Assembly (NCBI GenBank): GCA_028015205.1
Contig: CM051518.1
Span: forward strand, 59,289,978-59,353,977
Reading direction: 5' to 3'
Source of the DNA: Mytilisepta virgata
Taxonomy: Eukaryota; Mollusca; Bivalvia; Mytilida; Mytilidae
DNA length: 64,000 nucleotides
Shown here piece by piece: positions 6,154 to 63,791 of this stretch (within the stretch, counting starts at the first letter, position 1; the number at the start of each line of letters is the position of its first letter). Made by a program: the position numbers and the translations under genes. A model generated the notes under the pieces. It was given only the letters and a program-made list of their open reading frames with translations, did no database searches and was not told where the DNA came from.

Positions 6154-6348
6154 ATGACAAACAATAGGAACTTCTGTGGAATGTCTTTCTTGATGTTTAT
6201 TTGTTTTTGGTGGATCGCAGCCGGTGAGATTATTTTTATATTCAAATAGCTTTGCAACAATCACATTAATTACAGAAGGTCCGAATATCATCAGTTCATA
6301 TATATAAGGCACTATCTCACAATACCAGGAAAAATTATTGAAAATGTT

Positions 6349-6380
<32 letters not shown>

Positions 6381-9300
6381 TTTGTTTTTCAGCTACTCTT
6401 AATATATTTTATTTTACATAATTTTTATATTTGGTGGTGGTGGTTGCGGGGATTTAGGGGGGGGGGGGGGGGGGGGTAATATCCTGTATTTAAATAGGAC
6501 ACTAGTAGTTTTGAATGGCTGTTTTGATTTCTATAAAATTTTACTCTATTACCTTAAATTTCCTGTTTATCCTGTTGAATAATAAAGAAAATATTGAAAA
6601 ACATACAAAGGATAACATGACTTTTATAATTACGTTAATAATAATTAAATTTCGCTCTGGAACGAAATCGACTTATAGATCATATGTAGATGTGATAACA
6701 TATTCGTAAAATTTTCTGTTTCTTTATTGTAATGCTGTAGTCCTTTCTCATTCACATGATATTCCTCGATGCATGCATAGGTACACGATTATGAGGTTTT
6801 AAATTTTAAACAGATTTAATTACAAAGACGGAAATATATGATGCTGCATACATCAAGTTAAGAAAGAAAAAAACACATTTTATATTATCTTTGTGCTAAA
6901 AGTACAAGCAGAGGAACAGGGTCTAGTTGTTCAAAAGTTAACTACAATTTCCAGTTTATAATTTTCGCTTCTTTCGTAATGACTAAGGATCGAAAATTTT
7001 CTGATGGGTAAATCCTATGACTTTGTGTGTCTATGCACAATTTTGTACAGAAATATTACTTAACAATCTAAATAATGGAAAGTGAAAAAAGTGATTAACT
7101 TTTGAACAACTGGACCCAGATTGTGGTTCTGTTCCTGTTGACAATCTCAAAGTCACTGTGATCTCGCACCATATATATGATATGTTTAGTCCAAAGAAAT
7201 TCTACCTGCACAAAACTCTTTGTCCTCTTTCAGGGTTATATCCAATGACCTGCAACACCATCCAAGATGACAGCCATAGTCGATCTTAGTTTAACGAAGT
7301 ACCCTATGGAGAACCGAACATAGTTTAAGATAGGAAACTATGAGAATATCCACCTAAAAAAATCTTTTTGTCTAAAATCAGTCAGCAAATTGGAACCCAA
7401 TTTGACAAAACCAATGGGCCAATTGGAACGCAACTTGACAACAACATTCCAGACTGCCAACCAAAATGGATATAGTCAAACAATTTATTCTGCATGAGGT
7501 CTACAAATGATACCCAGGTGAGCGATACATGATCCTGGGCGCCTCTAGTTCAATTCGCTAACGATGCCAACATTAATTTTTCTTATCTTGCACAGAGACT
7601 TTGAGAGACCAATATTCAAACTAAAAATCCTGATGTGAAGGTCTGTAACTGCAGTAAAAATATTGCATTCTTAATTTTTTGTAGAGTCGTATGTTTTGAA
7701 TCATATTTTCGTGTTCAGACACGAGACGAGTATTACATTAAACTGGTTCAAACAATATTATATAATGCCGACTCATTATTCTACGAGTACTTTTAATAAA
7801 TATTTACCATAAACACGAATGTTCATGCGTTTATTATCAACGAAACTGATTTGTTTGTTTGTTTAGTTAGGGTTTTACGCCGTTTTCAGCACATTTGGCT
7901 ATTTCGCGGCGGCCAGTTTTTATTGGTGGAGGAAGCCGGAGTACCTGGAGAGAACCACCGACCTTCGGTAGGAAAATTAGCAATCCTTGTCAATTAAGAT
8001 CGGAGTCGAACACACCCTGCCACAGGTGAGATTCGAACTCACAACCTGTTTCAGCTTACCAGTTTATTTCTTTCACGTGTCTGTCTTAAGTACGGAGCCT
8101 TTGTTTGTGGTTTTACGTGTTTTTAAATTTAGTTTTCATCACAATTAAACAGTTTGTGGTTTGGTTATGTTTTATATGAGCTATGCCACTAAGAGCATCT
8201 TCTCCCTTTCATACGACAACCATGCATTAGGTCTTCATCACATTCGCACTAAATTATATTTTTTACCCCTCCGAAAACTACACACTTTATATCAAGCCTG
8301 CTTAGACAGTAGAACTACTGATTCTAATTCATCTGAATACAAACTGACCTCTGTTGTGTTGGATATTGGACGTCTCTGGCTTTTCACGCCAGTTGGTACA
8401 CTTGGAATTGAACAAGACAACCGTTCTTTTCTTCCACTCTTTTTTGCCAACAAAGGTTTAGATGCCGTAAATCTTGGCAATATCCTTCACCACAAATCTG
8501 TGAGATTAAAAGTTCCGCCTTATTTCAAAGATCAGTCCGTTCCCATTATTTCCTATACATATAATACACCCATTGCACTAAAAATCTTCAATCACAAACT
8601 TGTATTGCAGGACATCAAAATCGACGATCTCAAAGCTAAGTCACCTGATTGTTCATGCAACAGTTCTCCTATCAAATATAGTCATCACAGGACACTTAAA
8701 TATCATAGACAATGAGTCTCTTCGTGATGTCTTTGCAAAATGTCCTTTAGAAGTATCGCGAACCACGATCCATAAATTGGAAATATAATTTCAAACTACT
8801 GATGGATGCTGTGGAGGACTATGCCAGAAAATGGAGCCAACGTGATTCGCTTTCAGAGTTGGTTAAAGCTGTGAGATCGTTGATTCAAGTCCGAATTGAT
8901 AAACTGAGAAGGTCGGTCTATGAGTAAAAAAGGAACATCAGTCTTCAGCAACCCTGATGCTACCAAGACATTGTCCGCCATTCATGATAAATATGTGGTT
9001 GTTCCTGCAGACAAGGCCCCTAATAACATCGTTTTTGTATGCAAAAGATACTATATTCAATGCTTGATTAATGAACTAGGGATTGCTAGTTCACTTGGCA
9101 ATCCTACCTATAAAGCTACTACACTTTCAAAGGAAGAAATAACCGACAATCATAGATCATTCTTATCGTGATTTGGTATTTCCATCAAAGATGATGACTG
9201 TGATCTTCCTACCTTGTACTGGATACCCAAGTTACATACGTGTTCATACAAACAACGCTTTATAGCTGGATCTGCCAAGTGTTCAACCAAATCATTGTCT

Positions 9301-12300
9301 CAACTTCTAACTTCTATAACAGCTGTCAAAACGGGCCTCCAAAGTTTTTGTGAGACAAGTTATTCAAGAAGTGGTATCAATCAAATGTCGATATTAAAGA
9401 ACCCCAAAAAATTAAAGGATATTTTACGATCTCGGTCCATTTCAGTCTGTAAAAGCATAAAAACAATTGATTTCTCTACCCTCTATACCACCATTCCTCA
9501 TTCACAACTGATCCATCGATGCTTTCAAAATAAAAATGGCAACAACAGATACACATACCTTGTCATTGGTAGAGATAAATTATACTGTGTTAAAAACACT
9601 CTAAATCTATCAAAAATATACATAGGACGAAATTGTCCAGATGATTGAATTTTTGATCGACAACATATTTGTTCAATTTGGTGGACGTGTTTTCCAACAG
9701 ACAATTGGCATTCCTATGGGTACAAATTGTGCGCCACTGCTGGCCGACTTGTTCCTTTACTCATATGAGCCAGGCCTCCTGGATGGGCTTCTTAAGGAAA
9801 ACAGAAGAAGTTAGCCCGTATCTTTAATTTCAGCTTCCGCTACATATGATGTTTTATCACTCAAAAATTCACGTTTTGGGAATTTATTACATCCCATCTA
9901 TCCCAATGAGCTCGAAATTAAGGATACCACAGACACTGCCAAGTCTGCATCTTATCTTGACCTTCACCTCGAAATTGACACCAGAGGTAGGTTGAATACA
10001 AAAAAAACTTTACGGCAAACGGGATGACTTTGATTTTCCAATCGTCAACTTCCCATTTTTGAGCGGCAATATTGCAGAGGCACCGGCTTATGGAGTATAT
10101 ATTTCACAAATCATACGTTATTCCAGAGCTTCTGACATATACATTGACTTCCTGGACAGAGCCCGGCTCCTGACAGAAAAGTTGCTCAGACAGGGGTATG
10201 TTGCTCATAAGTTTGAGTCATCCTTATTAAATTTTTATGGACGTCATCATGAGTTCTCTGGAGTTTAGGATTTTTTCTAGGTTGTTCTCTCATTGTCATA
10301 TGCCTCATACCCAAATTCATTCCTTCCCCATATTACAGCTGAAATATGTGACGAAGACAGTTCCCTTGGAGAATACTGTGATGTTGGAACCTGTTGTTTT
10401 AAAGATGACATATGGTACTGCGCCATATCTGATGCTGACCGTGTTGGATGTCAAAACCCTAAACACACGTGAGTACTTACAATCGAAAGTCTCAAAGATT
10501 AATTTTAAATCCTCATTCAGGTGGCCATTATACTTACATAAATGTAAATGCAATACGATGCCTTACGTATTTAAAGCTGATACAAGTCTCTCTTTAACGA
10601 CCGAGATCAAATATATGACGCTGTTTAAAAATATTACAGCAATCATTCTGTCATCTTCACAAGTCGGGCTCATGGGACCCAATGCTGCACTATAGAGAAC
10701 GGAGCCCATGACTTGTGAGGATGTAATTTTGCATGTATTTTCAATTCGAATACAGATTTGTACATATTATACGTGCTCAAAATTGTGAATTATTTAAATA
10801 CAAGACACAAAACATACCAAGACCTTTTTCGGTTTCCCGCTAATTTATTACCCGGAGACACCACTGATCGGTGAAACTTTGTTGACAGAAGCATTCCCGG
10901 TGCATGAAAATTTATATCACTAGTTTGTATATTGGTGGGCAGTATTTAAGAATTGAATGCCTCCTTTTGTAGTTTCATTGGCGTGAAAAAAGTGTTGACC
11001 GAAACACCTTTTATATACTATTAAAGCGTGGAAGTACGGTCGTCCCCTTTACAACCCCATGAAACTACTAAAAACAATAATTGTACATAATTTTTCATGT
11101 ATTCATAGGAAACTGGATAGTCAAACCTTACAGTATTTTTGGACCACTGTTTTCACACTGTATGTCTATTACTCTATTACTTTAAATTTCCTTTTTCGTT
11201 CTTGACGAAATCAATAACAGATATTCATAAATTTTATTGTTTTTTAATTTTGATGCCATAGTCTTCCCTGGGTATCGTGACAGTGAAAAATTGTGAAAAC
11301 TATTATATATTTCTGAAGGATATATTTGGACTTTAAATTCATTAATTGTCTTGTTAATTTTCATTTTATTTTCAGTCCGCTCGTTCATAATTCACACTTA
11401 TAATTTTATAAGACTTTATACAGCAATTAGTAATATTCGTTACAAAATGATTAATCGCAAAATAATGTAATTCAAACATCTTAAAGATCAAATTGATTTC
11501 CGTTCTATTGTCGTGTAGATATAAGAGTTAAAGTGTAGGAGTTAATTCCGTTTAATCTTTCATTTCATTATATTGTCTGTTAATTTAAGCTATTTTAAAT
11601 TGTCATGTTCTGGTTAAGTAATTATAATTTGAATCGATTCGAAAATCTTTCTAAGGGAAAGTTCTGGAATGCCAGGCGAAGTGTCTGGACGCACACAGGT
11701 TGCGCAAGTACGCAAAACTAGGGACTCTTTACGAATACCGTATTTTTATCTTTGCATGGACTCTACGTGTTGAATTTATATATTACATGTACATGTATTT
11801 GTTGAATGTGGATTTCTAATATAACATTGAAATTACTTTATTTGTGTTTTACTGACTTATACAGTGAGCTATTCCCAAGAACATTTGTTATAACAGGGAC
11901 GTCCAAAACCCCTGTTATAGTATTCCTCCTATACATGCATGGATACACGATAATAAGGTTTTAAATTTTATACAGATTTAACAACAAAGAAGGAATATAA
12001 TGCTGCATAAATCTAATGAAATAAAAACACATATTTACGTACATAATCTGTATGCAGAAAGTACAAGTTAAGTCGCAACTTCAAATAACGCCAGGCGGAG
12101 CTGTTTTAAATTTTTGGAAATTATTTAAAAACTGGGTTAATCAATTTTTATAGAAGATTTGGGTACAAGATATATAATGTTCACAATCGATGTTTCCGCC
12201 CGGTGCTGCACCTAGCATTAACTGAAGTTGTTAATTAAGTAAAGGAACATATTGTGCTCTGTTTCTGCATGTTGACCATCCCAAAGACACTGATCTCGCG

Positions 12301-13164
12301 CCTCATTGAATGTTTAGTCCAAATAAATTCGATTTGTTGTTTAAAAATAGTACAGCAATCATTCTGTCATATTCACAAGTCAGGGGTTTTGTGTCCTAGT
12401 AGGACCCAACGTCGCACTACAGAATTGGACCTCTGACTTGTGATGCGATGATATCATTTTGTATGTATTTTCAATCCGAATACAAACTATACTTTCTCAA
12501 GATTATGGATTATTTAAAAGAGAAACATTAAACATATCAAGACTTTTTTTTTGGTTTCTCGCTAATTTATTACCCCGAAATTAACTACTGATCGGTGAAA
12601 TGGTTTGTTGAAAGAAGAATCCGGTGCATCAAAATTGATATCACTAGTATTTTGATTGGTGGGCACTATTCAACAATTGAATGCTTCCTTTTTGTAGTTT
12701 CATTGGCGTGTAAAGGCATTGTGCTAAGCACGTTTTGTATATTTTAACGTCATATCTTGGTGACTTTTTCAGCCAATCATATTTCTGGGATTCAAAGAAA
12801 TGTAACTCAAATGTAATTATTTTTAAGAATATTGCGTACCTCGTGATTTGTTAATCAGGCTGTTGAGGTACTGTTACAAAATGTTTACAAATTTCATCAT
12901 TCTTGGAAAACTTCCATCCTAATTTCGACCCACTGTTACAAAAAAATCGAGTTTAATTTATTGTGTATAAAACATTTGTAGAAGAAATCAATTAATATTT
13001 TATTTTTCAGACCTGAATGGGTGATTTTTGTTGTCATCATCTGTGTGATTGGTTTCTCGGTGCTAGCTGTATGGTTTGCCTACTGGATACGTCGGAGAAG
13101 AATGAATCAAGCAGCTGATAGGAGAATATTAGTGTTGTCGGATGGTGCTGGTTATCCCGGCTAG
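6154..13164 (+). CDS. Array gene A: six-cysteine type I membrane protein, 3 exons, 117 aa
   Basis: Exons are 6154-6223, 10339-10468 and 13011-13164. Donors are GTGAGA and GTGAGT; acceptors end TTACAG and TTTCAG. Introns are phase 1 and phase 2 as in the six paralogues, and the 354 coding nt keep frame to TAG. Exon 1 gives a hydrophobic signal peptide; the upstream in-frame ATG at 6154 was chosen, but the ATG at 6181 would also work. Exon 2 carries C-x9-C-x4-CC-x7-C-x9-C with the core EYCDVGTCC and IWYC. Exon 3 starts PEW and gives a transmembrane helix of about 20 residues followed by WIRRRRM and an uncharged end. An AATAAA lies at 13410. Intron 1 (4.1 kb) contains a SINE and a Penelope-like remnant; intron 2 contains a duplicated block. 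Exon 2 is the most acidic of the family. Function unknown; surface receptor or adaptor by topology only. Confidence 0.83.
6457..6476 (+). repeat. Poly-G tract
   Basis: An uninterrupted run of about 20 G in intron 1 of gene A, preceded by a (TTTA)n stretch at about 6350-6380. Its length is likely polymorphic or error-prone. Confidence 0.9.
6527..7200 (+). repeat. Intron block duplicated at 11160-12330
   Basis: Segments such as ACTCTATTACYTTAAATTTCC and ATGAGGTTTTAAATTTTAAA in intron 1 of gene A recur in the same order in intron 2 at about 11168 and 11955. The copies are diverged. This is one half of a duplicated block; see also 10614-11000. Confidence 0.6.
7851..8055 (-). mobile_element. tRNA-derived SINE (minus strand)
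   Basis: Read on the minus strand it has a Pol III B-box-like GAGTTCGAATCTC, a central CTCCAGGTACTCCGGCTTCC domain and an (AAAC)n tail. It matches the copy at 40986-41187 nearly throughout. Short elements of this type are common in molluscs; the family name (V-SINE or similar) is not certain. No clear target duplication was found for this copy. Confidence 0.75.
8161..10268 (+). pseudogene. Degenerate Penelope-like reverse transcriptase in intron 1 of gene A
   Basis: Broken reading frames in order: N-terminal region 8161-8715 and continuing near 8790; DKAPNNIVFVCKR at about 9020; YWIPKLHTCSYKQRFIAG from 9217; DFSTLYTTIPH near 9470 (RT motif A); GIPMGTNCAPLLADLFL near 9710 (motif B region); a disrupted Y-[ID]-D motif C near 9840; and the C-terminal KRDDFDFPIVNFPF, AYGVYISQIIRYSRA and FYGRHH blocks to 10268. 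Several frameshifts and stops separate these blocks, so it is inactive. Motif style is Penelope-like from memory of the family. The insertion accounts for most of the long intron 1. Confidence 0.75.
10614..11000 (+). repeat. Intron 2 block, duplicated at 12335-12720
   Basis: About 390 bp starting GTTTAAAAATATTACAGCAATC just after exon 2 of gene A recurs at about 12340-12720. Both copies contain an internal hairpin, CACAAGTC...GACTTGTG. With 6527-7200 and 11160-12330, it shows that a larger block around exon 2 was duplicated, but the second copy lacks exon 2. Confidence 0.75.
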
Positions 13165-18674: not shown

Positions 18675-19550
18675 AAACAAGATCTTTCAGTGAATGTTAC
18701 TATATGGTCCTATGCTAAACTATGTTCGGTTCTGGCAGCCATCTGGGATGGTGGGCGGGGTAATTGCATACAATTCTGAAATATGACTGCTGCCAAGTTT
18801 TGTTCCAATTGGCTTTATGGCTTAAGACAAGAAAATCTTAAATTTCCCATAGGGTCCTTTGTTAAACTGATTTTGGCTCTGGCAGCCATCTTAGATGTCG
18901 GGCGGGGTCTTCGCATATAATTCTGAAAGAGGACCACACGAGGACCATTGTTATCAAGTTTTGTTCCAATTGACTTTGTGGTTTCAGACAAGAAAATCTG
19001 AGTAAATTTCCATGGGGTCCTATAGTAATACATACTTGGATCTAGCGCCAATCTTGGAAGGTGGGCGGGATAATCGGATATAATTCTGAAAGAGGACCTC
19101 CTAAGGACCATTCCTGCCAACTTTTGATCCAAATTTCATGGCTTTGTGGTTTCAGACAAGAGTAAATTTCCAATAGGGTCCTATGTTAAACTATATTCGG
19201 CCCTGGTGGACATCTTGGACAGCGGGCGGGGTTATCGGATACAACCTGAAAGAGGACCACCTAAGGATCAGTAATGCCAAGTTTTTTTTGCAATTGCCTT
19301 TGGTGTTTCATACGAGAAATATCTTTTAAGTAAATTTACCTTAGGTCCTATGTTAAACAATGTTCGGCTCTGGCGACCATCTTGTATGGTGGATGGGGTC
19401 ATCGGATATAATTCTGAAAGAGGACCTCTAAGGACCATTGCTGTCAGGTTTTGTTTGAATTGGCCCAGTGGTATCAAAGGAGAAGATCTTTAAAGGAAAG
19501 ATTACAACGACGGACGACAGACAGACGCCAATTGATGGCAATAGCTCATC
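18675..19550. repeat. Tandem repeat, five units of about 155-165 bp
   Basis: Units begin near 18702, 18848, 19013, 19171 and 19340 with GGTCCTWTGTTAAACT and contain GGGCGGGGT, AATTCTGAAAGAGGACC and CCAAGTTTTGTTCCAATTG. The array ends with ACGACGGACGACAGACAGAC and GATGGCAATAGCTCATC, a tail related to the ends of the 2822-5520 foldback element. Non-coding. Confidence 0.8.
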
Positions 19551-46656: not shown

Positions 46657-46762
46657 TAGTGTTGGGCAGAATACTTATATTTCCTGTTATAGGAATTTCT
46701 TACTTCTGTTATGGATGTTATTTTTACGGTAATCAAAAAGAAAGTGAATTTCATGATTTTAT

Positions 46763-47878: not shown

Positions 47879-47904
47879 CCTACTTTTTGTCCTTTGTATT
47901 GTCG

Positions 47905-48387
47905 AACTGTTTGGTGTGTATCTAAACCCATATAAGTCTTTGTTATATTTCTTTAAAGTAAATCAGAAATATTTTATGTTCGGATGAGCGAAGCGAAGGA
48001 GAACTTAATGAATTTCTTTTTGTTTTAAAGTTTATTTTGTCTTTTCTTTGGCGCAAGTTTTTCTTTGGTAATTCGGTTCGACTATATATAAGCTTTCTCG
48101 CGCCCTTTTCATTTCATCGAGATTTTTTCACACCAAACTAGTTCGACAACTTTATTTAGAATCGCATAAACTACATTAGTAATCATTGTACAATGTTATA
48201 ATATTTGCTTTTTTCTTTGTAGATATTATGCATGTTCTGGTGTCAGCGTTGTAGCCAGTGCCATTTTTGCCCTTTTGTTATTAATAAAACTGTTTGGTGT
48301 GTATCTCAACCCATATAAGTCTTTGTTATTTATCTTTAAAGTAAATCAGAAATATTTTATGTTCGAATGAGCGAAGCGAAGGAGAAC
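47905..48387 (+). repeat. B1-A2-B2 terminal repeat block
   Basis: B1 47905-48004, A2 48008-48155 and B2 48288-48387. B1 and B2 share AACTGTTTGGTGTGTATCT...GAGCGAAGCGAAGGAGAAC. A2 repeats the TATA-bearing A1, so a promoter also lies about 270 bp upstream of gene E exon 1. The 130 bp between A2 and B2 is unique. Confidence 0.87.
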
Positions 48388-48410
48388 ATAAATGTTTACA
48401 TGTACTAGTT

Positions 48411-48448: not shown

Positions 48449-49339
48449 ATGGCAAGTTCTATTTTAATCTTGGAGAAATTCGTTTTACTATTTTGCTGCG
48501 TATACGTTATAACATGTGGTAAGAAATTTTTTTTCAAGGTCACAACTCTGATATACATTGCACATGTGATACTTTTGTTTATTCTACGTCAACGTTATGT
48601 AAAAACAAACAGAATATGTTTCATAATAAGAAATTTACCTTTACTTTGATATATGATAACATTAAACAGTGAGGGAGCGTTATGGCAAGTTTAGTGGGAA
48701 TCTTAGGAAAATTATTCTTACTGTTTTGCTGTGTACACACAATATAATGTCATGAATGTGGTAAGAAACCACTTAAATAGAAACGAATTAACGTGTTTTT
48801 TTAAGGTAGGAGGTACCTCAATCGCTAAACTACCGATTTTTATGAAATTTTACATGCAATTAGAAAGTTGGAAACTGTATCTTAATATCGCAAAAATTTT
48901 ATATTTAGCTTTTATATTTCTTCAATAACGTTAAAATAGAGGTCTTTTACTGTAGATTTCATATAAAAACGGCTGAAAAAAATTAATAGTTTCGCTTTAA
49001 ATCGTCATTATATTTCTCAAAAAACAAATCTCTAGAATTTTCTATAAAAATGATATGCGATTGCTGTCATCTTTTCCGTTTCATTGATTCAAAACAAATA
49101 TAGGGTCACCACTTAGTTTTCGCTGTGGAAAACATTCAACCTTACCTCCTGTCTATAGAAATACTACAAATCTACATTTTTCAGCGCGACGTCGTAACGA
49201 CGTTACGCTTATTTTGGCTTTTTGACGCCTGTTATCGCTCTACATACAGTGTTTCAATTAGTTGAATAATTCAATGTAACTCCAATTACAAGTATATTTA
49301 TCTCGTAATTAGAATTAACAAATAAAACAAATAAAAAGA

Positions 49340-49370
<31 letters not shown>

Positions 49371-51459
49371 TATTAAAAAAAGAACCAAATTTATAAACTT
49401 AGAATTCAATTGATGTCACTGTTTGAACAACATAAAAATTACACAGAATACATTTACAATAATGGCAATTCAAAGTACTAAAGATAATATAAATCGACTG
49501 TAACTTTCAGAAACAGAAGTATGTGAACAAGGTAATTCTTTAAAACTATATTGTGATGAGGGCCAATGCTGTTATATGTCTAACCAGTGGTTCTGTAATA
49601 CTGGAGAAGTTGATCAGTCTAAATGTGAAACATCAAACTATTTGTGAGTATTATTTTTAAATATATTTCGAGAAATCTCAATATTTTATAAGCATACGTC
49701 TTGAATATTATTTATTTATAGAAAAATATTGAACAAATCACAACTGATTAAACTTAAATTATAATAATAACGGTATTACTGACAAAAAAAACATAAATAA
49801 ATTTGTATAAGTGTTCAAAAAAAAAATTTAAATTAATATCCTGAATAAACAAATGATCAAGCTAAGATCAGTAAACAATCAAACTAACTAAAGGTGGATA
49901 ACTTGAACCATATATAAAAATGACCAAATGAAAAAAAAAAAACAATAAATCATGAAAAACAATGAAAAAAGGCCTAACATTTCGACTAGTACGACTTGAT
50001 CACGAGCATATGGAGATTACATTGAAAAATAAACTAAACATTAATTGCAGTTTTCGAATGGGCTAAAAGTAAATCACCTAAACAAGTTTTTCTTAATTTT
50101 ATCTATGGTGTAGCTGAACACTGAAATGGATGCTGGGAGATGTATTTACAACGATATGATAGGTGGTGTGCATCAAACACCATCCCAACAGAACAAACGT
50201 CGCAATAGGCTAATAACAAATAATTGTGTATAGATATTGATCATCAACCCATATCCACATGATTTCATGCAGATGGACAACTTGACATTGCAGGGAAGCT
50301 TTTACACCAATGTCCAAAAGTTAGAAAAGTGCCACAAATTAAACAAATAATGAAAAAAATATTTATTGATGGATTGGCGTTTTGCGCATGGTCGACCTTC
50401 GTCCATACCTCAGTAAAAGTTACCCATAAGATATCCAAGACCAAAATCTCATTTCTCGATACAACCACTACACTGAAATACGGATGTATATTCAAAACCT
50501 ATTCCACCCAGCAGTTGTCACACTAAACACTATTACGACAGTATCAAACACAGCTAGGCTGTACAAGTTAGACACGTATAAAGTTTCCACCCAGAAACAA
50601 CAGCACAACGTCTTGCTGAACTGCTAGGTCTTCTTAAGAAAAGAGGATATGAACATCAAGGCATACAAAGCGGTTTCCAAAAAGCCAACCGCTTCAACAG
50701 TACAATCTCTTTAAATATAGAGAACCTAAAGGCTCACCTGTGCCTGTATGACTCACCTGGCTTCTATTAACCTATTTGAAAATGTAAGCTCTGTTGTATC
50801 AAGAAGGCTGTTAAAGAAACGCAAAACATCAGTGACCTTAACATTTGACCTTTTACATTAAAAAGGTTGATCATTTGCATCTGTCCTTCCATATGAGATT
50901 CCTGCCAACGTTGGTTACAATTTACCCATTACTTCCTGAGCAAATAAATAAAAGCCATTTGCATCGGGTGAGCGAATGGATCTTTACTAAATTGGATCGT
51001 TTGTACAGCATATTGCTGTCATCAATCTTGAAAATTTTCGAAACATTTCACAATGTAGTATCAGAGGAGAATATTTTTGAAATTAGCCTCTGGCAATTAT
51101 GTTATTTATCCAACTGGAACCAAAGGTGGATCGTTTGTAGAGGATGAGCGGAGGGTATTTTATTTATTGTTTTAATTCAAATTTTATTTTGTTTTATTTT
51201 GATGTAGGTTTCCGTTTTAATATTTTAGTTCGTACTGTAATTAATTTTCCTTTGTCCAATAGCGAGTATACACATGAGACAGGTACTGAAACTACAATTT
51301 CCTTAGAAATATGTAAAACTTATGTACTTATATTTTAGGACCGGTTGGCAGAAAGGACTCATTGTTGGCGGAGTTTTTCTTTGTGCAGCTTTAGTGTTTG
51401 CTGCAGTGTATTGCATAAGAAGGCGGAGTAGAAAAAAATTGGAAAAACAATTTGGCTAA
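48449..51459 (+). CDS. Array gene E: six-cysteine type I membrane protein with truncated tail, 3 exons, 107 aa
   Basis: Exons are 48449-48518, 49511-49643 and 51339-51459; donors GTAAGA and GTGAGT, acceptors TTTCAG and TTTTAG, phases 1 and 2. Exon 1 is a signal peptide. Exon 2 has C-x9-C-x4-CC-x7-C-x9-C with LYCDEGQCC and QWFC. Exon 3 starts with TGW, then a transmembrane helix (GLIVGGVFLCAALVFAAVY) and IRRRSRKKLEKQFG. Relative to F and G, one extra T in CAATTTGGC near 51450 shifts the frame; removing it would read ANVGQHMVNPIHRY to a TAA at 51497, like the tail of F. So the protein has lost about 16 cytosolic residues. The Ngaro element ends 57 bp before the ATG, and a Tc1 element starts 82 bp after the stop. 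Confidence 0.85.
48682..48760 (+). pseudogene. Second broken first exon, inside intron 1 of gene E
   Basis: ATGGCAAGTTTAGTGGGAATC closely resembles exon 1 of gene F. The frame hits TAA at 48745 because the end has extra bases (AATGTCATG), but GTG|GTAAGAAACC donor context is intact at 48760/48761. A proximal GGGAGCG sits before it. Either a relic of another duplication or an alternative non-coding first exon of gene E. Confidence 0.75.
50240..50725 (+). pseudogene. Penelope-like remnant in intron 2 of gene E
   Basis: Reads KTKISFLDTTTTLKYG near 50440, then after shifts RLAELLGLLKKRGYEHQGI near 50605 and SGFQKANRFN to about 50700. The FLD-T and KKRGY-x-x-x-x-I-x-x-G blocks are typical of Penelope-like reverse transcriptases. 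It belongs to a different subfamily from 8161-10268. Inactive. Confidence 0.65.
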
Positions 51460-51541
51460 TGTGGGACAACATATGGTTAATCCGATACATCGTTACTAAA
51501 CTATGTTATATTCTAAGTCATAATTTTTCAGTTTGCTTATA

Positions 51542-53061
51542 TACTGAACCGCAAAAGAAACGTCGCTTTTTCAAAATGTTAGCAAAATTCAAAATAAATA
51601 TTAATTAATGATTTTTATATAATCAGTATTACGATTACATCACCAGGTAAGATTAAATTACCTGTGAATTAAATTTTCGGTTGAATAATTTTCAGTTGAT
51701 ATCGTAGAGCGACCGTACCTAAAACCGCTCGTGGGACACACTTGGCGGTAATTTTTCTTAAATCTTAAATGTTCGTGAAATTCATGCTCCTTTATGGGTA
51801 TAAAAGGCCGGAGAAAATTAGTATCAGTGTTGACACAGAAGCTATGCCACGTCTGACTCCACAACAGAGAGAACAGGCCATTGGTCGATTGGATGCTGGG
51901 CAATCTGCCAGAGTTATTGCCAACGACTTCAACTGTGCTGTTCGAACAATTGAACGTCTACGGACACGGTACAATGCAACAAACAGCACAAATGACCGTC
52001 CACGGAGTGGTAGACCCCAAGTCACTACCCCTAGACAGAATAGAGGCATTGTTCGTCACCATTTGATGAATCGGTTCACCCCAGCTGCCGAAACTGCCAG
52101 AAACACTGTTGGAACACATGGACGACCCATAAGTGATGATACGGTTCGTCGGCGATTAGCTGCTAGAAACATGAGATGTCGCCGTCCAGCAAGAGGACCT
52201 ATTCTTACTCCTCGACACCGTCAAGCTCGTCTTCAGTGGGCCACTCAGCGACAGAATTGGCGAAATCGACAATGGCGTAACATCATCTTCTCTGACGAAA
52301 GCCGTTACTGCATTTCAACAGCCGATGGCAGAACCAGAGTGTGGAGAAGACGCGGGGAACGTTACGAAGACAGCTGCATTCTGGAAACAGACGCGTGGGG
52401 AGGACCTAGCATCATGGTATGGGGTGGAATCGGCCTTAACGTTAAACTTGGTCCAGTCATCTTTCAAAACCTTGGCCCATGCAGAGGAAATGGAGTAACA
52501 GCTGCCCGTTACATCGACCAAGTCTTGACACCCCATGTTCAGCCCCATTTCGCACGTCATCAAAACAAGACTTTCCAACAGGACAATGCACGTGCGCATA
52601 CCGCAAGAGCCACAAGAGACTTCCTACAGCAGAATAACATTAATGTTATGGATTGGCCGGCTTTGAGTCCACATTTAAACCCTATTGAACATTTATGGGA
52701 CGAAGTTCAAAGACGGTTGAATAATGAGCAGCCAAGTCGGACAACTGCAGCTGAACTTTCACAAGCGTTTCAGAGAGTATGGGCACGTATTCCGATGGCG
52801 TTTATTAATCGGCTCATCAACTCCATGTACCGAAGATGTGCCGCAGTAATTGGTGCCGGTGGAGGACATACACGTTATTAACACAGCATTGAAAAAATGT
52901 GACGTTGCGACAATTGTGACGTTTTTGTGAACATTGTAACCAAAAGACTGTAAATCATTCATTAAATTTTGTAAAAATTAATTTAAAATATATAAATGTC
53001 ACTTTGAAATAAATGTATGTGAACATGTCATTTTGTGCGACGTTTCTTTTGCGGTTCAGTA
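51542..53061 (+). mobile_element. Tc1-like DNA transposon, copy 2
   Basis: 1520 bp with the same terminal inverted repeats as copy 1 (ACTGAACCGCAAAAGAAACG) and flanking TA at 51540-51541 and 53062-53063. Transposase on the + strand. Inserted just downstream of gene E, likely in its 3' UTR, and followed by (TA)n and the 251-bp tandem array. Confidence 0.93.
51844..52881 (+). CDS. Tc1-like transposase (DD34E), copy 2, 345 aa
   Basis: Start MPRLTPQQ at 51844, with TATAAAAGGCC about 40 bp upstream. Same domain layout as copy 1: catalytic D151, D247 and E282 retained. It differs in three visible residues: G213 to C, D277 to H in the SPDLNP motif and P299 to R. D277 is strongly conserved in Tc1 transposases, so activity may be impaired. 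Open throughout. Confidence 0.95.
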   Translation: MPRLTPQQREQAIGRLDAGQSARVIANDFNCAVRTIERLRTRYNATNSTNDRPRSGRPQVTTPRQNRGIVRHHLMNRFTPAAETARNTVGTHGRPISDDTVRRRLAARNMRCRRPARGPILTPRHRQARLQWATQRQNWRNRQWRNIIFSDESRYCISTADGRTRVWRRRGERYEDSCILETDAWGGPSIMVWGGIGLNVKLGPVIFQNLGPCRGNGVTAARYIDQVLTPHVQPHFARHQNKTFQQDNARAHTARATRDFLQQNNINVMDWPALSPHLNPIEHLWDEVQRRLNNEQPSRTTAAELSQAFQRVWARIPMAFINRLINSMYRRCAAVIGAGGGHTRY

Positions 53062-53078
53062 TATATATATATATATAT

Positions 53079-54057
53079 ACGGACGTCCGCTGGTTGAAAA
53101 AGATGTAAAATCACTGCCTTGGATTGATCCTATATCTAGAGAATTTAAAACTACAGCCTAAAAACACAAGACTTCCTGTGTGTGCAAAGCATGACTTTTA
53201 TAAGTACGTCATAGGAACAACTATTTTAGGTTGTCACCGTGGCGTATCGTTATAATCGTCATGCTTTGTATGCTAGGCGGAGTTGCCGTAAGGGGTCTCA
53301 GAGACTTCAATAAATAAAATTAAACTCATACGGACGTCCGCTGGTTGAAAAAGATGTAAAATCACTGCCTTGGATTGATCCTATATCTAGAGAATTTAAA
53401 ACTACAGCCTAAAAACACAAGACTTCCTGTGTGTGCAAAGCATGACGTTTATAAGTACGTCATAGGAACAACTATTTTAGGTTGTCACCGTGGCGTAACG
53501 TTATAATCGTCATGCTTTGTATGCTAGACGGAGTTGCCGTAAGGGGTCTCAGAGACTTCAATAAATAAAATTAAACTCATACGGACGTCCGCTGGTTGAA
53601 AAAGATGTAAAATCACTGCCTTGGATTGATCCTATATCTAGAGAATTTAAAACTACAGCCTAAAAACACAAGACTTCCTGTGTGTGCAAAGCATGACGTT
53701 TATAAGTACGTCATAGGAACAACTATTTTAGGTTGTCACCGTGGCGTAACGTTATAATCGTCATGCTTTGTATGCTAGACGGAGTTGCCGTAAGGGGTCT
53801 CAGAGACTTCAATAAATAAAATTAAACTCATACGGACGTCCGCTGGTTGAAAAAGATGTAAAATCACTGCCTTGGATTGATCCTATATCTAGAGAATTTA
53901 AAACTACAGCCTAAAAACACAAGACTTCCTGTGTGTGCAAAGCATGACGTTTATAAGTACGTCATAGGAACAACTATTTTAGGTTGTCACCGTGGCGTAA
54001 CGTTATAATCGTCATGCTTTGTATGCTAGGCGGAGTTGCCGTAAGGGGTCTCAGAGA

Positions 54058-54060
<3 letters not shown>
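53079..54060 (+). repeat. Tandem array, four units of 251 bp
   Basis: Units start at 53079, 53330, 53581 and 53832 with ACGGACGTCCGCTGG, the last truncated. They differ at only a few positions, so the array is young. Each unit contains an inverted repeat, GCAAAGCATGAC...GTCATGCTTTG. Each also has a TATTTTAG acceptor-like site followed by an open stretch (SPWR[IN]VIIVMLCML) ending TAA with an overlapping AATAAA, and an upstream stretch, GRPLVEKDVKSLPWIDP, that is open for about 26 codons. The array is bounded by (TA)n on both sides. Nature uncertain; see findings. Confidence 0.9.
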
Positions 54061-54109: not shown

Positions 54110-55480
54110 ATGTTTAAACGAAGACATGTCTCTTAAGGGCTTCAGTCGACAACTATTCTTACTCCAATATTACCTGTAATTTGTAGCTATTATCTATCTA
54201 CCAATTCTTAGGAGCGACAACCAAATTGCGGCTCCTTTAAACATCTATTTTCACACTTGACAGCATGGCAAAAAGCGGTTATATTTGTGATGTAATTACC
54301 ACTAACAGCGAAATCCACATACATGTAGTTCATAATTAAGCTGAATTAAATAGTCTGACTGACAGTTGAATCATCCCATGCATGTTTGGGAGAGAGTCCA
54401 AGATTTATCATTTCAGAATGTTAGAGTTAAGCCACTTTTCCCACATTTGAATAATAAATTTGTGTTGGTGTTCTTGGTAAGCATGTTGTTGAAGTAGCTT
54501 CAATAGACCAAACATAACTCATATTCAATCAAGAGTAAACGATCTCTTTGTTCAATCATGAGGTTTACTATTTTAAAAATTAAACAATAAAATCATGACA
54601 ATGAATATTTTCGTTTTTTGTTTTTGTTTTTCATTTCATAACCAACAAGCATTCTGAGAGTATTGTTGAGCAATACAATACGGCTTGAACTGTGAGAAAA
54701 CACACCAAATCCTCTTTGACTACGTGAATCGGACGCAGACGTATAGACAGAGTGATTCCTAAAAATCCTAAAACTATGTTTGCAAGGAGTACACAATAAT
54801 TACACGACCAGCTTGAAACTCAAACTTGATCTGTAGTTCACCATTATAAGGCTACATACTAAAAATAAAATAAATTGGTAAAGTGGTTTGCTAAAAGTCC
54901 AAAAAATTAATATTTTGGCAATAATAACATTTTAAAATAAATACAATGATCGCTCATTATGATGTGAATGCAGTCGATCACGCTGTTATCTTTCTAGATG
55001 ATCTTTCAGCAAAGATTCATTGCAAAATACACGACTTCCTGTATTTAGTGAAGGAGAGACTCACAGTTATGCCAACACATCGATTAAAAACTCAGACCAA
55101 ACTTTTGCAGGCGTACAGCAATCTAATTAATATGCTGATGTTCGAATAACTACCCGACAAATTGTATGGTACCAAAAAATCCCAGTTTTGAAAAATAAAA
55201 AGCTGTTTTTTTCTTGTCAAAATTTTAAAAATTTATTGAATATGATTGATATCATACATGTAAATTAAACGAAATGAGCTATACGCCAATGTCAAAACTG
55301 GGAATTAAATTAAAAATACATGTCTCGCACATATAATCATGATAATACTTGTGTTTGTTTAATACCAACGTGATGAAAAATCTAAATAAGATACCTTTAA
55401 ACCGGATATGTTTCACAGCAAACTTATAACGATTGCGTTCCTATAAATCTACGTCGATACGTGTTTACCTGAAACAGTTG
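54110..55480. other. Intergenic between the tandem array and gene F
   Basis: Contains a repeat at 54646-54900 related to 13690-14050 (CATTCTGAGAGTATTGTTGAGC and ACTCAAACTTGATC). Otherwise AT-rich. One short ORF, listed separately, has coding-like codon use. Confidence 0.45.
54946..55149 (+). CDS. Unrecognised short ORF, 67 aa
   Basis: Open from ATG to TAA with mixed hydrophobic and charged residues (HAVIFLDDLSAKIHCKIHDF and VKERLTVMPTHRLKTQTKLL), suggesting amphipathic helices. No signal peptide, no cysteine pattern of the neighbouring family, no recognised domain. It may be a fragment of a transposon or chance; its composition is less AT-biased than the flanks. Confidence 0.2.
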   Translation: MIAHYDVNAVDHAVIFLDDLSAKIHCKIHDFLYLVKERLTVMPTHRLKTQTKLLQAYSNLINMLMFE

Positions 55481-55481
55481 T

Positions 55482-55531
55482 GGGGCGGTTAGGTTGAACA
55501 GGTACATTCATTTTCAAAATATAAGTTCAAC
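55482..55531 (+). promoter_or_regulatory. Shared promoter-proximal motif of gene F
   Basis: GGGGCGGTTAGG, then ATTTTCAAAATATAAGTTCAACATGG. It matches the E and G upstream sequences at GGNGCGGT, TCAAAA and AGTNNAACATG. Confidence 0.5.
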
Positions 55532-58500
55532 ATGGCAAGTTTTGTGAGGATCTTAGGAATATTCTTTTTACTGTTGTGCTATGTATACAAAATAACATGT
55601 GGTAAGAAACCAGTTATAAATAGAAAACATATATAAAAATTATTTTATTCTGTTCTCTTATATAATTTCTGATATTGTTCATCGATCCGTTTTTCAAAAT
55701 TCGAACTACTGTGAATAATGACTTATCAACTAGTTCATTGTTCGTCATTGCGATCGGTATTTCTTTATCTATAAATTTATCTGAAAAATGAAACATGAAC
55801 TATACATTATTCATAGTCTTTTGAATAACAAAAAAAAAAGAGATAAATGGACGTTTTTCAACATAGTAGAGCATCAAGACTCTAAATACCGATGTATGTT
55901 TCTTTTCATGACTTTCTATTTCTACACCCGGATAGAACATTACTGCTTAATCTGATAAATTTTCCCTATACAAAGAAAACTCACTCAGTATCATCTTGTT
56001 TTAGACTCTCATTTGAAACTTTTAAGATATTCGGAATGAAAACTTGTTGCAGTGATTTGTAAAACAACATCAGAATATATTTTTAAAACATCCAGGTAGA
56101 CGCACCCTCCCCCCTTTCAACATAGGCGATACTTTATCAGATATCAACATGCTGTAGATCCTTTAAATTGAAAAGGTACACATAAAATAATTATTTACAA
56201 ACCAATTAAGGCATTTCAAAAGCCCTTGAAACTATACGAATTACATTTCAGATAGAGTAGTATGTTCACGAACACGTTCTTTTACTGAATATTGTGATGA
56301 GGGTCAATGCTGTTATATGTCTAAACAATGGTACTGTAATACAGGACAAGTTGATCAGTCCAAATGTGAATCACCCGGCGGACATTTGTAAGTACAAGTC
56401 TAACAGTAGTTCTTCAAATTTCCAACAGATTGTTATATTGTATCAGCAATAATTTTAATAGGATAAAGATTTTTAAGACTGTATACTTATGAAAGTAGAT
56501 TTATTCTAAGAATCTAAGTGCATTATGGGAAATATAACCCCGGAGAAAGATAAAATTTCAACTTACTCCCTGGAAACCTAACTCCGAAATTCTTCTAACT
56601 TCTAATGGCCCAATTCTGCATCAGCCGAAACAAGTCTCTGTGTCAGTTTCATATTTTTTATGGCATTCGCTCGCTTTGGATGAATTCGCGTGATGGATCA
56701 TGGGTTCCCAACCCACAGGTCTAGAGCTGCCTAGTGCGTCCCCATATTGGGGATAGGGGAGACCTCCTTATAGGGGCAGGGCGGTTGTCAGGTCACAAGA
56801 TGAAAAGCCTGACCGCAGACAATAATGGATAACGTGTTTGAAGAATGCCATACTCACTGCATGCTAAAGACCCTTCTGTACTTTTCGAAAAATATCAATG
56901 CTAATGGCTACTGCAGAAATTTAACTAATTGGCCCCTACCAATTGCAGTGGCTGTCAAAATTTGTTCTCCTGTCTTCCGCCCCACCCCCATTTCTGAATT
57001 GTGTTGGATGTACTTTTGAACTGGCTTTTGACTGAAGATGAATGATTTTTTTCCGCTGGACGTTTAGCAAACAACAATTAATTAATGCAGTGCGGGCACA
57101 AACTCCGTAGTCCATGCTGCACGGAGACCTCTTTTAGTACTTTTGATATTCCGTTACTGTGTCTCATTGACATCTACCCTATATTATACACTTATTGACC
57201 GGGTACGAGGGGGAAAGTAAATTTATTGTCCCCGAGGTACCAGTTAGTGCTCCGTCGCGCAGCTGAGAAAAAAAAATTGTATCAAGGGGACAATTACTAT
57301 TCCCCGAATATCCATTCAGTAAATATCCACAAAACCGAGGTGAAAAGTCCGTCAATTCGAAATCCAAGGAAATGACAAAGTCATGAGAATGGAACACAAC
57401 AAACAAACGCCATAATAATACATGTATAACTAAAGGAATAAAGAAAAATACAAATAAACTAAACGAAAAGAACAAGACACAACAAAAAACTAAAGCAATA
57501 TGAACTCCCACTAAAAGCCGGGATTGACATCAGGTGCCTAGGAAATGTAACCATTTCCTGATCCGTTAACGGCACCCGTCACATTGCCAGTGTGTAAAAC
57601 CCAGTGATATGTCAAGTCTGGTGATGTGTCAATTCCATAGGGGCGTTAACTCTTACTAATGACATCTAGTCTCATTCATGAGAAACTTCGTATCGGCCAA
57701 CCAATTCGTGATTTTTGGAGTATTGAAATTAACAGAGACTGAACATAACCCTGTCTCAGAAGTTAATATGACAGCCATCTCGCCATACCGATAAATTCGC
57801 CGTAAAAATTACATGCACGACAGTAATGACTCAATTGTGAAATGTAAAGCCCATGGACTGGAGACCTTGATATTTCAATAAGAAAGATGAAGTTCACAAT
57901 CGGAAAATAAAAATTATCTTGGTAGAATCTGGTATATATCTTTGTATGGACACTTATGAAGTTTGAGTATCCATTAAATGGAAGGGAGGTTAAAATTGTC
58001 ATCACTTACAGCAATACCGAAGGATAGAACAGAAATGTGATTGACAATATCTTCATTTAATATCGTAGCATTCGTGTAAGATATCAATATCCTTCTCCTT
58101 AATCAGGAACTCAGTGTAGTGTCTTTTGCAGACAAAAACGATATTGTTTGGAGCTTTGTTAGCCGATATAATTACATAATTGTCATGAAGTTTACCGCGT
58201 TTTTCTAACTTGGGGATCCTTAAAAACGCTATCAGATTTAGGACTCCAGTTAAAAGGCTGGGCCTCAAGATATTTGGGCAATTTTGCAAGGATGTCTTCC
58301 AGTTTAGTATTAAATGCTTAGGTCACCAGTAATAACATGGCCATCGGGAGTATAAGTGAATGGAGGGATGAGCAGGAACAATCATGTGATTTGGATTTAA
58401 ACTCATCAATTTTGAGATTGCGCAATACCCTTTGCAATTGACGGAACTTTGTTTGTATCGTGCACGATATTGCCAAGGTTGGTGTCATCTTGGTCTTTGT

Positions 58501-59230
58501 TACCAAAATTAATTTGCAGGAATGAACGAAATTCTGACTCATTACCAGAATTATAGGAGTTCGTGTTTTTCATTGTTTTTTAGTTTTCTGTGTTTATTTG
58601 TTGTGGTTGGGGTTGTTCATTTGTCTTCCCGGGTTTGTCTGTCCAACGGATTACGTTTTTTCATTTGCTCCTTGCGAATAATTGTTCTAAATACTAATAG
58701 GCCTAAATACTCTATGTTGGCCAAATGTTTTATTATACCGAAAAACTACTTATGGTCAATAATTTCCAGTATTATTGACCGATCAATATCAGTGGAAACT
58801 ATTAACTGGCCAATAGCTCAAGGTTTAGAAATTATTGTTTTAATTGTTATATAGAAAGAACATACCGAGATATAATAATGCCTTTTATTTCTACCATACA
58901 TTGCAATAGGAAAGATTAATTTTCCATTTTTACACGAATCACCAATTGAAATGCAATATACGAAACATGTCCCTTCTTTCTCATTACCGTATAACTCATA
59001 AACTTTTGTCTTTAAATGTTGCATATATGTATTTACATTTTAGAGCTGGATGGGAGATTGGACTTATTGTCGGTGGGTGTTTGCTTCCTGTAGTATTAAT
59101 ATTCGGTTGTGTGTGTTTTCTGCGATGGAGGCGAAGAAAAAAAATAAAAAAACAAATGGAAAATGTGTTACAGCAACATATGGCTAATGTGTTACAGCAA
59201 CATTTGGCTAATGCAATACATCGTTACTAA
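55532..59230 (+). CDS. Array gene F: six-cysteine type I membrane protein, 3 exons, 130 aa
   Basis: Exons are 55532-55601, 56252-56387 and 59044-59230; donors GTAAGA and GTAAGT, acceptors TTTCAG and TTTTAG, phases 1 and 2. Exon 1 is a Leu-rich signal peptide. Exon 2 has C-x9-C-x4-CC-x7-C-x9-C with EYCDEGQCC and QWYC and ends SPGGH, one codon longer than in E or G. Exon 3 begins AGW, then a transmembrane helix (IGLIVGGCLLPVVLIFGCV) and RWRRRKKIKKQ. The cytosolic tail has an internal duplication of NVLQQH[ML]AN and ends AIHRY, giving the longest product. AATAAA at 59487. Intron 2 (2.7 kb) holds a minus-strand Penelope-like remnant. Best-preserved member of the E/F/G clade. Confidence 0.87.
57763..58540 (-). 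pseudogene. Penelope-like remnant in intron 2 of gene F
   Basis: The minus strand reads FKSKSHDCSCSS near 58400, then HDNYVIISANKAPNNIVFVCKR near 58150, then (after a large internal deletion) FYFPIVNFIF and HGLYISQLSHYCRACNFY near 57850. These are the N-terminal, pre-RT and C-terminal blocks of the element at 8161-10268; the catalytic RT core is missing. Inactive. Confidence 0.7.
58547..58680 (+). repeat. Retroelement 3' tail repeat
   Basis: GGAGTTCGTGTTTTTCATTG and TTGTCTTCCCGGGTTTGTCTG, the same tail as at 14950-15075 and 16660-16815. It is opposite in orientation to the adjacent Penelope-like remnant, so it is a separate insertion. Confidence 0.6.
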
Positions 59231-60745: not shown

Positions 60746-61821
60746 TTACACCGAATGTTAACGTACAAAACGCATTGATGATCGTGACATTACAAGCGTC
60801 CAGTCGGATATAGTATTTTTTGGCAAATACCACGGCAGAGAGGGTAAAAAAGGCATATCCTTTTTGCATATACCTCGGCGCTGTTTAAAAATGAACGATA
60901 TTCATTTGATAAAAGTAAATTGGTGAAAAATACACTGGCTATCAACCAATCAAAACCCAGGATCCTTACATAAGGTGTAATTATAAATGTTATTCAATTT
61001 GCTGATATTTTAATTAGTCCGATGTCCTAATTTTTGGAGTCTACTGAACTAAACCAATAAGTTCATATATTTGTCAATAAAACAACATCACCTTACATTA
61101 CATCAATAAATATACAAAAAAGTCGGTGGGTGAACAACATTTATCATTACTGCCTTTTCTTTCAAAGCCAATAGTGCGAACCAAACACCCTAAGTGTAAA
61201 TCCGTGAAATGTTAAAGACACTTGCAAAAACTGGTTCAGAACAAAGTACAATATTTGTAGAGAAGAACAAAGTTTCATGGTAATGCAACACATTTGATAA
61301 CGGTATATGTATTGAACATACGGACCAAAAATGAATTCCGTGTCTTTACCAAGTCAGACTATTCTTTGTTTGTGTTTTTTTAACTTTTATGTTATTTTGT
61401 TTTGTATGAGGTTCTATCGACTGGATGGCGTTGATTGATTGGTATGTGACTGTTGACTTTTCCTGTTATCCATATTGTTGTTTGTCCAATATGTTGATGT
61501 TTCTACTGCTACTGGACAATTTTGGTGGTATAAAAAAATTCCACGTTTAGTAACCTGTCTCTCTGTCTCTCTTGCCAAAATTAAAGAATTAATTAGGATT
61601 TATATCATATCATACATGAAAATTAAATTAAATGGGGGTATGCGGCAGTGTGAAAACTGTAAACTGAATTAAAAGTACAAATATTTTTGTTTATTTTACA
61701 TCAACGTCACGGAAAAACCGGATAAATCACCTTATAAAGAAAACGTTCATAAAAACAAACTGATAAACTATCGCATTCCTTTAGCACTTCTTCGATACAT
61801 AATTTAACACATGTATTAGTT

Positions 61822-61873
61822 GGGGAACGGTGAGTTCGGGTTTTATCATCCACTTTCAAAACATCAGTGCAAC
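61822..61873 (+). promoter_or_regulatory. Shared promoter-proximal motif of gene G
   Basis: GGGGAACGGTGAG, then CTTTCAAAACATCAGTGCAACATG. Also shares ACATGTATTAGTT just upstream with the E promoter region (ACATGTACTAGTT). Confidence 0.5.
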
Positions 61874-63791
61874 ATGACAATCGCAGTGGGAATCTCAGAA
61901 ATATTCTTATTACTATTTTGTTGTTTCGACGCAATAAAATGTGGTAAGAAACCAGTTAAATAGTGATGCTTTCTTCAAATATACTAAATATTATTGTTTT
62001 TGGTAAAAAAAAATCCCCTGTTTTTGAACATGTCTTAATGATAATAAATTTATTATTACCAGAATTTTTTTACTCTTAATATATGTATAGGTGTGTGCTT
62101 TTATTCTCATTTACTTTGTCTAAAAATTCGGGTGAAATATATTTAATAAATACTGTCATTATCATCTTTTTTTCAAAAACCTTTTAGCTAGTTGGAAAAA
62201 TTTTTCGTGGCTATGGTCAATACTGTTGTACTTCCTCAAACAAAGAAAAGGACACATCAGATAAGTTAGATGGAACTTTTTTATTTAAAAACATTGTATT
62301 ATTTGTTTTAGCTCTCTTTAACTTTTTTATTATTTTCTCTTTGCAGAGGTAGGTTATTTTCTCGATTAATCACCCTTTCTACCTTGGCCTTGGGGTTAGT
62401 ATTTTGGTACGACCTAATCTGAACACTCTATAAAATTATAAGAATTTTTATAAAACTCCGTTCTTAAGTACAAATATTAGTTGGAATAGTAAATCAATGA
62501 ATATGATTCCAGAAAGAGAAATATGTAAAGAAACTCGTTATCTTGAAGAATATTGTGATGAAGGTAAATGCTGTTTGATGTCAAAAACATGGTATTGTAA
62601 TACTGGACAAATCGATCAATCCAAATGTGAAACACCTAAAGATACGTAGGTATATTTCTATTTACACGATGAGTAATAGTTCAGTTTTGAGAGAAATAAA
62701 AATATCGACTACCTATTTACAGAAACATTCAACTATTCCACCACTGCTAAAAAAAATCACAGCAGCTTTAAAAATAAAAAGAAACACTATAGATTGCCAT
62801 GTTAGCTTTTATTTGGAAAATAGTGTACATGAAATGTGTTTTACCTTTTAATTTTTCGTATTCAGATGGATGGTTGAATAATTAGATAAATAAATAAATA
62901 AAAAAGCATTTGTCAAAACTTCATGATTTTGAGCAATGAAATGACTTGTGAGAACTAAAATATATAGACAAAATGGTGACAAGATTTTGTCTTGACATAG
63001 CAAAGAACTTGAAGAGCTTCATACCCGAAAAATGTTTCTTACGTATGCTATTGAACGCATTCTTTGCGGTATAATATATAGAATATGGTTCATCCACTTT
63101 TTTGTTTTGATATAATATTTTTTTTTAATCCGCCTTATCTCTTTTCTGTGGAGAACCTAATACTGAACTGAATGTCGGTTGATTCATATAAAAACAAAAT
63201 GACACGGGAAATGCGTCAGTCAACCCCCCCCCCCCCCCCAAACTTCAGACAAACATTGTATTGTGAGTTCATAAATACTAGATCCTTGCTCAATTTTTAG
63301 TAATAACTGGCAGTTTAGAATAATATTTCATTATCTTATCAAGATCTTGTTAAGAGCTTGCTATGCAGTGTTGGAGACTCTAACACGGCCTTTTTGTACT
63401 TTTTGGATTCTGTATTAGGATTGTTATCTCATTGAGGTCTACCCCATATCACGTTTTGTTTGTCATGTATACATGTAGCAAAAAGGAAGACAATCCTTTA
63501 GCATCAATACCCTCAAAAGAAATATCCCCATCTTTTCCATATAATAATGTAATTCTAGAAATATTTCTGATTATATCTCCTGTGATTTTTGTCCTTATGA
63601 ATATGTAAAATTTTCATTTACATTTTAGACCGGCGTGGCACATAGGAGTCATTGTTGGTAGCGTTGTTCTGGCTGTTATTGTGGTGATCGTTTGTTTGTA
63701 TTGCATAAGATGGCGACTGAGAAAAAGGCTAGAAAAACAATTGGCCAATGCGGCGCACCAACGTATGGTTGATGCGTTACAGCGTTTCTAG
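61874..63791 (+). CDS. Array gene G: six-cysteine type I membrane protein, 3 exons, 121 aa
   Basis: Exons are 61874-61943, 62513-62645 and 63629-63791; donors GTAAGA and GTAGGT, acceptors TTCCAG and TTTTAG, phases 1 and 2. Exon 1 is a signal peptide (IFLLLFCCF core). Exon 2 has C-x9-C-x4-CC-x7-C-x9-C with EYCDEGKCC and TWYC. Exon 3 starts PAW, then a transmembrane helix (IGVIVGSVVLAVIVVIVCLY), IRWRLRKRLEKQ and a tail ANAAHQRMVDALQRF, homologous to the F tail. AATAAA at 63963. It has the shortest introns of the array (569 and 983 bp). The GTAGGT donor of intron 2 is weaker than the others. Last array member inside this window; more may follow. Confidence 0.85.
63224..63239 (+). repeat. Poly-C tract
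   Basis: Run of about 16 C in intron 2 of gene G. Confidence 0.9.

Follow-up and report, generated by a model that had tools for sequence, protein, structure and literature searches.

The 64,000-nucleotide (nt) stretch of contig CM051518.1 from the mytilid bivalve Mytilisepta virgata that we analysed, referred to here as the window, carries a tandem array of seven predicted three-exon genes, G1 to G7, all on the + strand and spanning positions 6154-63791. Each would encode a small protein with a hydrophobic leader, an invariant six-cysteine domain, a transmembrane helix and a short tail. Our preferred, though still tentative, reading is that these genes arose by tandem duplication and make up a family not described before, whose members are small single-pass proteins of type I topology and may act as mini-receptors or surface binders.

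A six-frame scan of the window for the pattern C-C-CC-C-C returns seven matches, all on the + strand and 35 residues long each, with the spacing C-x9-C-x4-CC-x7-C-x9-C identical in all of them. Each of these cysteine exons is bounded by an acceptor in phase 1 and a donor in phase 2, with a signal-peptide-like exon upstream and an exon for a transmembrane helix and tail downstream, and GT-AG boundaries can be drawn for 14 of the 14 introns in a splice scan set to seek such sites. The pattern scan and the splice scan agree on the seven genes on one strand that the initial annotation had described, and its exon phases (1, 2) can be placed in all of them. The predicted genes are as follows, namely: G1 (6154-13164; exons 6154-6223, 10339-10468 and 13011-13164; 117 residues); G2 (20347-22739; exons 20347-20416, 21926-22058 and 22580-22739; 120 residues); G3 (25190-28472; exons 25190-25259, 27300-27432 and 28325-28472; 116 residues); G4 (34188-38358; exons 34188-34263, 35793-35922 and 38208-38358; 118 residues, with a second ATG at 34194); G5 (48449-51459; exons 48449-48518, 49511-49643 and 51339-51459; 107 residues, with a shortened tail); G6 (55532-59230; exons 55532-55601, 56252-56387 and 59044-59230; 130 residues); and G7 (61874-63791; exons 61874-61943, 62513-62645 and 63629-63791; 121 residues). 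Exon 1 measures 70 nt (76 in G4), exon 2 130-136 nt and exon 3 121-187 nt including the stop, so the earlier statement that no exon exceeds 190 nt is correct. The spliced frames run to 324-393 nt with the stop and yield proteins of 107-130 residues. First introns are 569-4115 nt long, second introns 521-2656 nt, and the genes are separated by gaps of 2.4-10.1 kb.

Alternative acceptors exist for exon 2 in G3, G4, G5, G6 and G7, as does an alternative donor in G3. The first-exon scan produced eleven rows, and those at 39656, 39662 and 46632 were left out because no family exons follow them downstream in order. In six of the seven genes, a hexamer resembling a polyA signal is present no more than 600 nt from the stop, whereas G2 has none in that range; this is weak evidence because the DNA is so AT-rich. 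Scanning the window for Rfam families and for tRNAs gave no matches, and a pattern for one mussel repeat gave 0.

The gene models were also examined with leave-one-out profiles, in which each gene's exon was searched with a profile built from the others. All seven second exons are recovered, at expect values (E) of 5.9e-10 to 9.4e-23 against 0.067 for the best non-family stretch, and so are all seven third exons, at 4e-7 to 1.3e-19 against 0.02. For G1 held out, exons 2 and 3 are found at E 3e-13 and 2e-8. First exons are recovered in five of the seven cases, G7 only at E 0.1; that of G1 is ranked 67th and that of G4 has no match to the held-out first-exon profile. For G1 and G4 the first exon is thus a provisional call, made from signal-peptide shape and donor phase. 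The best other match of the held-out first-exon profiles is a broken copy at 48682 (see below). When the window is compared with itself, G2 and G3 align in three blocks that correspond to the exons, each with at most about 75 nt of flank, as is expected if exons are kept while introns drift.

The division of one domain per exon that had been proposed, namely signal peptide, six-cysteine ectodomain, and transmembrane helix with basic tail, is borne out by the predicted proteins. Exon 1 encodes a hydrophobic leader, a putative signal peptide called by its shape. In exon 2, two or three whole codons precede the first cysteine and the entire cysteine domain follows within the exon; nine columns are invariant across the seven second exons (six Cys, one Gly, one Trp and one Asp), and the loop between the first and second cysteines (the C1-C2 loop) is nine residues long in every gene. 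Exon 3 contains in each case a hydrophobic 19-mer after the cysteine domain, with a best Kyte-Doolittle mean of 2.26-3.26. The net charge is +4 to +8 for the tail and 0 to -8 for the ectodomain, and N-x-S/T is absent from all seven proteins. A G-x3-G motif is found in the helix of five genes, G1 and G2 being those without it. The tails are of two types when sorted by eye, G1-G3 vs. G4-G7, and G4-G7 have a cysteine close to the inner membrane border that could be acylated. AlphaFold2 models of the seven second exons reach a best mean predicted local distance difference test score (pLDDT) of 73.1 with G7 placed first and 72.1 with G3 placed first. Both models have strands at residues 18-22 and 25-29, which span the CC pair and W-x-C; the first strand pair is 4-5 residues long with G7 placed first but only two with G3 placed first.

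Codon analysis of the seven aligned genes, using the DNA-tree topology and synonymous rates shared among regions, gives a whole-family ratio of nonsynonymous to synonymous rates (omega) of 0.41, and omega 1 is rejected (likelihood-ratio statistic 44.7, p 2e-11). Overall, purifying selection acts on the aligned codons. The cysteines have an omega at its lower bound; the signal peptide has 0.48, linker and helix together 0.44, and the tail 0.46. Among the loops, it is 0.78 for C1-C2, whereas the other three have 0.24, 0.41 and 0.30 (0.32 together), and splitting the first loop from the others improves the fit (p 1.8e-4). The C1-C2 loop therefore evolves near neutrally at constant length and the other loops under constraint, a contrast that the present analysis adds. 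Positive selection on this loop had been a candidate, with pairwise ratios of 2.00-4.45 in three of the four pairs listed (0.90 for G2/G3), and was not upheld by the tree-based codon model.

Neighbouring genes group together in both trees, which agrees with the tandem expansion proposed earlier: neighbours that are each other's closest relatives are the pattern that tandem duplication predicts. The DNA tree joins G2 with G3 (97%) and G5, G6 and G7 with one another (97%), with G4 beside the latter group (73%); these groupings also appear in the protein tree (64, 94 and 62%, respectively). About 400 nt on the 5′ side of G6 and G7, together with their first exons (55129-55623 and 61488-61963), are still 66% alike, although the introns are unalignable. 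This conserved stretch is possibly a shared promoter.

The initial annotation had also pointed to broken first exons, altered tails and gene decay within the array, and all three are visible in the DNA. Two broken first exons are recognized by translation and similarity. One lies in a copy of the pre-G5 stretch and G5 first exon at 42652-42820 (+ strand), where a stop follows after 15 codons; positions 42684-42820 are 84.9% identical over 146 columns in the self-comparison. The other, at 48682-48744 (+ strand) in intron 1 of G5, has an in-frame stop after 21 codons, matches the first-exon profile at E 5.6e-10 and shares 77% DNA identity with the G6 first exon. As for the tails, that of G5 is shorter than those of G6 and G7, its frame ending early although DNA likeness to G7 continues beyond the stop, while that of G6 appears, by eye, to be lengthened by an internal repeat.

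Several mobile elements lie among the genes. A Ngaro/DIRS-like retroelement at 44092-48391 (+ strand) has a CCHC knuckle as well as domains for reverse transcriptase and tyrosine recombinase. Its split direct repeats are arranged A1-B1-A2-B2 (44092-44239, 47884-48008, 48008-48155 and 48264-48391) and its end is about 60 nt on the 5′ side of the G5 start codon; alignment indicates that the paralogous stretch 42652-42820, which is without the retroelement, has kept the empty site. Two Tc1-type transposons, at 36563-38107 (G4 intron 2) and 51538-53063, are 97.5% identical and mutually inverted, with long transposase frames of 365 and 370 residues; domains were matched in the 36563-38107 copy, and the 51538-53063 copy starts about 80 nt on the 3′ side of the G5 stop. 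A 251-nt tandem repeat at 53077-54060 (3.9 copies, 99% matches) begins 14 nt after this second transposon. Elsewhere in the window, 2861-5506 holds a unit of about 325 nt in inverted and tandem copies (86-88% alike in the three longest pairs), and 18788-19464 an array of a unit of about 161 nt (4.2 copies, 73% matches).

The initial annotation did not recognize the family by name, and none of our searches supplied one. No Pfam family reaches its cut-off for the seven proteins, most of the weak rows falling on the helix and tail. In a protein collection, searched by a method that requires shared five-residue words, the G7 query gave 4 candidates and the seven-row alignment query 4294, none of them at E up to 10. 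With WBP1 as the query, the same collection returned 804 proteins (E up to 1), and the named ones among the 120 listed are from vertebrates; the negative result thus covers vertebrates at least, and close kin of the source species may be unrepresented. A profile search of PDB sequences and a Foldseek search of the PDB with the G7 model also gave nothing at E up to 10, none of 24 stretches from viral contigs was confirmed, and no paper describing the family was found by title or abstract. The family matches none of the tested families. Since short multi-exon genes of this kind escape open reading frame calling and neither search of the collection gave a relative, the family may also be missed by current annotation.

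If the preferred reading is correct, the signal peptide would be removed by cleavage near the exon 1/2 junction, and exon 2 would fold, at the cell surface or within the lumen, into a compact minidomain probably stabilised by three disulfides. The constant frame of six Cys, Gly, Trp and Asp would hold the variable C1-C2 loop, which most likely makes specific ligand contact. Exon 3 would anchor the protein, with G-x3-G in five of the seven suggesting dimerisation or partner pairing. The short basic tail contains no recognised motif, so that signalling, if any, would proceed through a partner. Copies would be born by tandem duplication and lost through breakage of exons, through altered tails and possibly through the insertion of mobile elements, a pattern of birth and loss as in recognition and defence families. 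A defence or recognition role seems to us the most likely one. A bolder form of the proposal, in which a rigid three-disulfide frame, a single hypervariable nine-residue loop and a dimerising anchor make up a mini-receptor system with a tandem, germline-encoded recognition repertoire, seems to us doubtful. Should the loop serve as a binding surface, ligand specificity could be tested directly on the seven variants that occur naturally on a common frame. Furthermore, massive gene presence-absence variation is reported for mussels (PMC7653742), and on that account differences between individuals could be linked to copy number in these animals.

Several points weigh against the preferred reading. 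The omega of the C1-C2 loop is not above 1 and omega 1 is not rejected (p 0.27), so relaxed constraint could also account for the loop's rate; moreover, the loop comprises only nine codons and was picked after the alignment had been viewed. On the other hand, its length is fixed in all seven genes, and it therefore seems not to be free of constraint. Confidence in the structure models is middling, the other four models per set having pLDDT of 54.5-65.0 and 55.7-63.3, and the two best models disagree on how far the first strand pair extends. Gene models and role alike are read from sequence, and since the searches gave no relative whose function is known, a defence role is suggested by the evolutionary pattern only. 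The earlier comparison with recognition or defence genes is thus partly retained: the fast loop fits it, but the role itself is a deduction and the loop's omega stays below the level that would mark positive selection.

Among the other explanations, the proteins could be divergent WBP1/STMC6-type transmembrane adaptors, whose cysteine domain serves as a trafficking or folding module in sorting endolysosomal membrane cargo. We regard this as unlikely, yet it has the common cysteine motifs and type I topology (see below) in its favour, and hhalign comparisons lend it some weight. In these comparisons, which had five targets in total, permutations kept the cysteines fixed. The score against one WBP1L stretch is reached by 1 of 200 permutations. 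Against a set of 102 WBP1 domains, i.e. those of the 120 listed WBP1 proteins that pass the domain pattern (18 were left out), the probability is 29% and 8 of 300 permutations reach the score, which is weak given that five targets were tried. Single genes range from 45% (G3) to 1.3% (G4) against this set, and the full-length alignment gives 18.5%, both as bare hhalign probabilities. VOPP1 was rejected as a match, as 199 of 200 permutations reach its score. Neither the seven proteins nor the seven second exons give a PF11669 row (E up to 10) in a scan whose filters remove most weak matches. As controls, WBP1 and WBP1L stretches score 78.5 and 80.9 bits and VOPP1 17.1, below the cut-off of 28.1. 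Since VOPP1, a named STMC6 protein, falls short, a match to PF11669 defines the WBP1 branch and not all of STMC6, and missing it does not exclude the wider group. Also against this explanation, the last two cysteines are apart and PPxY occurs in none of the seven proteins, whereas a proline-rich C-terminal tail with PPxY is given as a WBP1 feature in two papers (PMC6125347, PMC11399591).

It is also conceivable, though improbable, that the family consists of gamete-recognition or other reproductive surface proteins, the speed of the loop and the tandem copies reflecting mate choice and not pathogens. The same evolutionary pattern would result, but no sequence feature points to gametes. A poorer prospect is that the genes supply effector peptides of an antimicrobial or toxin-like kind, made from a membrane precursor and either tethered to the membrane or shed, like an anchored CRP-I. 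The six cysteines do follow the C-C-CC-C-C order of mussel CRP-I as given in PMC10138031; against this, three of the four spacings differ (see below), the ectodomain charge is not cationic, and fast evolution is confined to one loop instead of the whole domain. Kinship to the one CRP-I knottin peptide compared was likewise rejected, as 113 of 200 cysteine-fixed permutations reach its score and no likeness beyond cysteines is seen; a knottin fold as such would require a cystine knot of C1-C4, C2-C5 and C3-C6. Finally, a largely decaying array, with some or all copies pseudogenes or unexpressed and loop variation reflecting relaxed constraint, would accord with the two broken first exons, the short G5 tail, the elements on either side of G5 and the lack of relatives in a protein collection that covers vertebrates at least, but the open spliced frames and splice sites of all seven genes, the rejection of neutrality, the cysteine omega and the constant loop length make it very improbable.

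With regard to known systems, the C-x9-C-x4-CC segment of the family resembles the trefoil signature. The profile of TMEM190, a trefoil protein, touches G3 in the Pfam scan (E 0.037; 14.6 bits, cut-off 25). Compared with a trefoil, however, the family lacks the first cysteine and has an extra last one; no trefoil row appears in the Pfam scan of the seven proteins, and 89 of 200 cysteine-fixed permutations score as well, so the candidate that spacing and the TMEM190 touch had suggested was rejected. Mussel CRP-I, which shares the cysteine order, is multigene and fast-evolving according to PMC10138031, where its array is given as C(x3-6)C(x1-7)CC(x3-4)C(x3-5)C, in the last exon and with a propeptide; the word "transmembrane" does not occur in that paper. 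A further CRP-I feature is a dibasic site for propeptide cleavage. Only C-x4-CC of the family is inside these ranges, the other three loops being outside, and its cysteine domain occupies the second of three exons, ahead of the transmembrane exon. Judged by the permutations, the likeness to WBP1 is therefore the sole lead, and a weak one. After the cysteine pair, the family has C-x7-C-x9-C vs. CC-x4-CC in WBP1, so that the first four cysteines fit the WBP1 order C..C..CC..CC in spacing and the last two, which are not adjacent in the family, do not; the WWFW membrane entry of WBP1 is also absent from the family. What the family and the WBP1/WBP1L branch of STMC6 (PF11669) have in common is a single-pass type I architecture with the cysteine domain close to the membrane, C-x9-C-x4-CC (one residue longer in some fish WBP1 rows) and, in most rows, C-[DE]-x-G-x-C-C.

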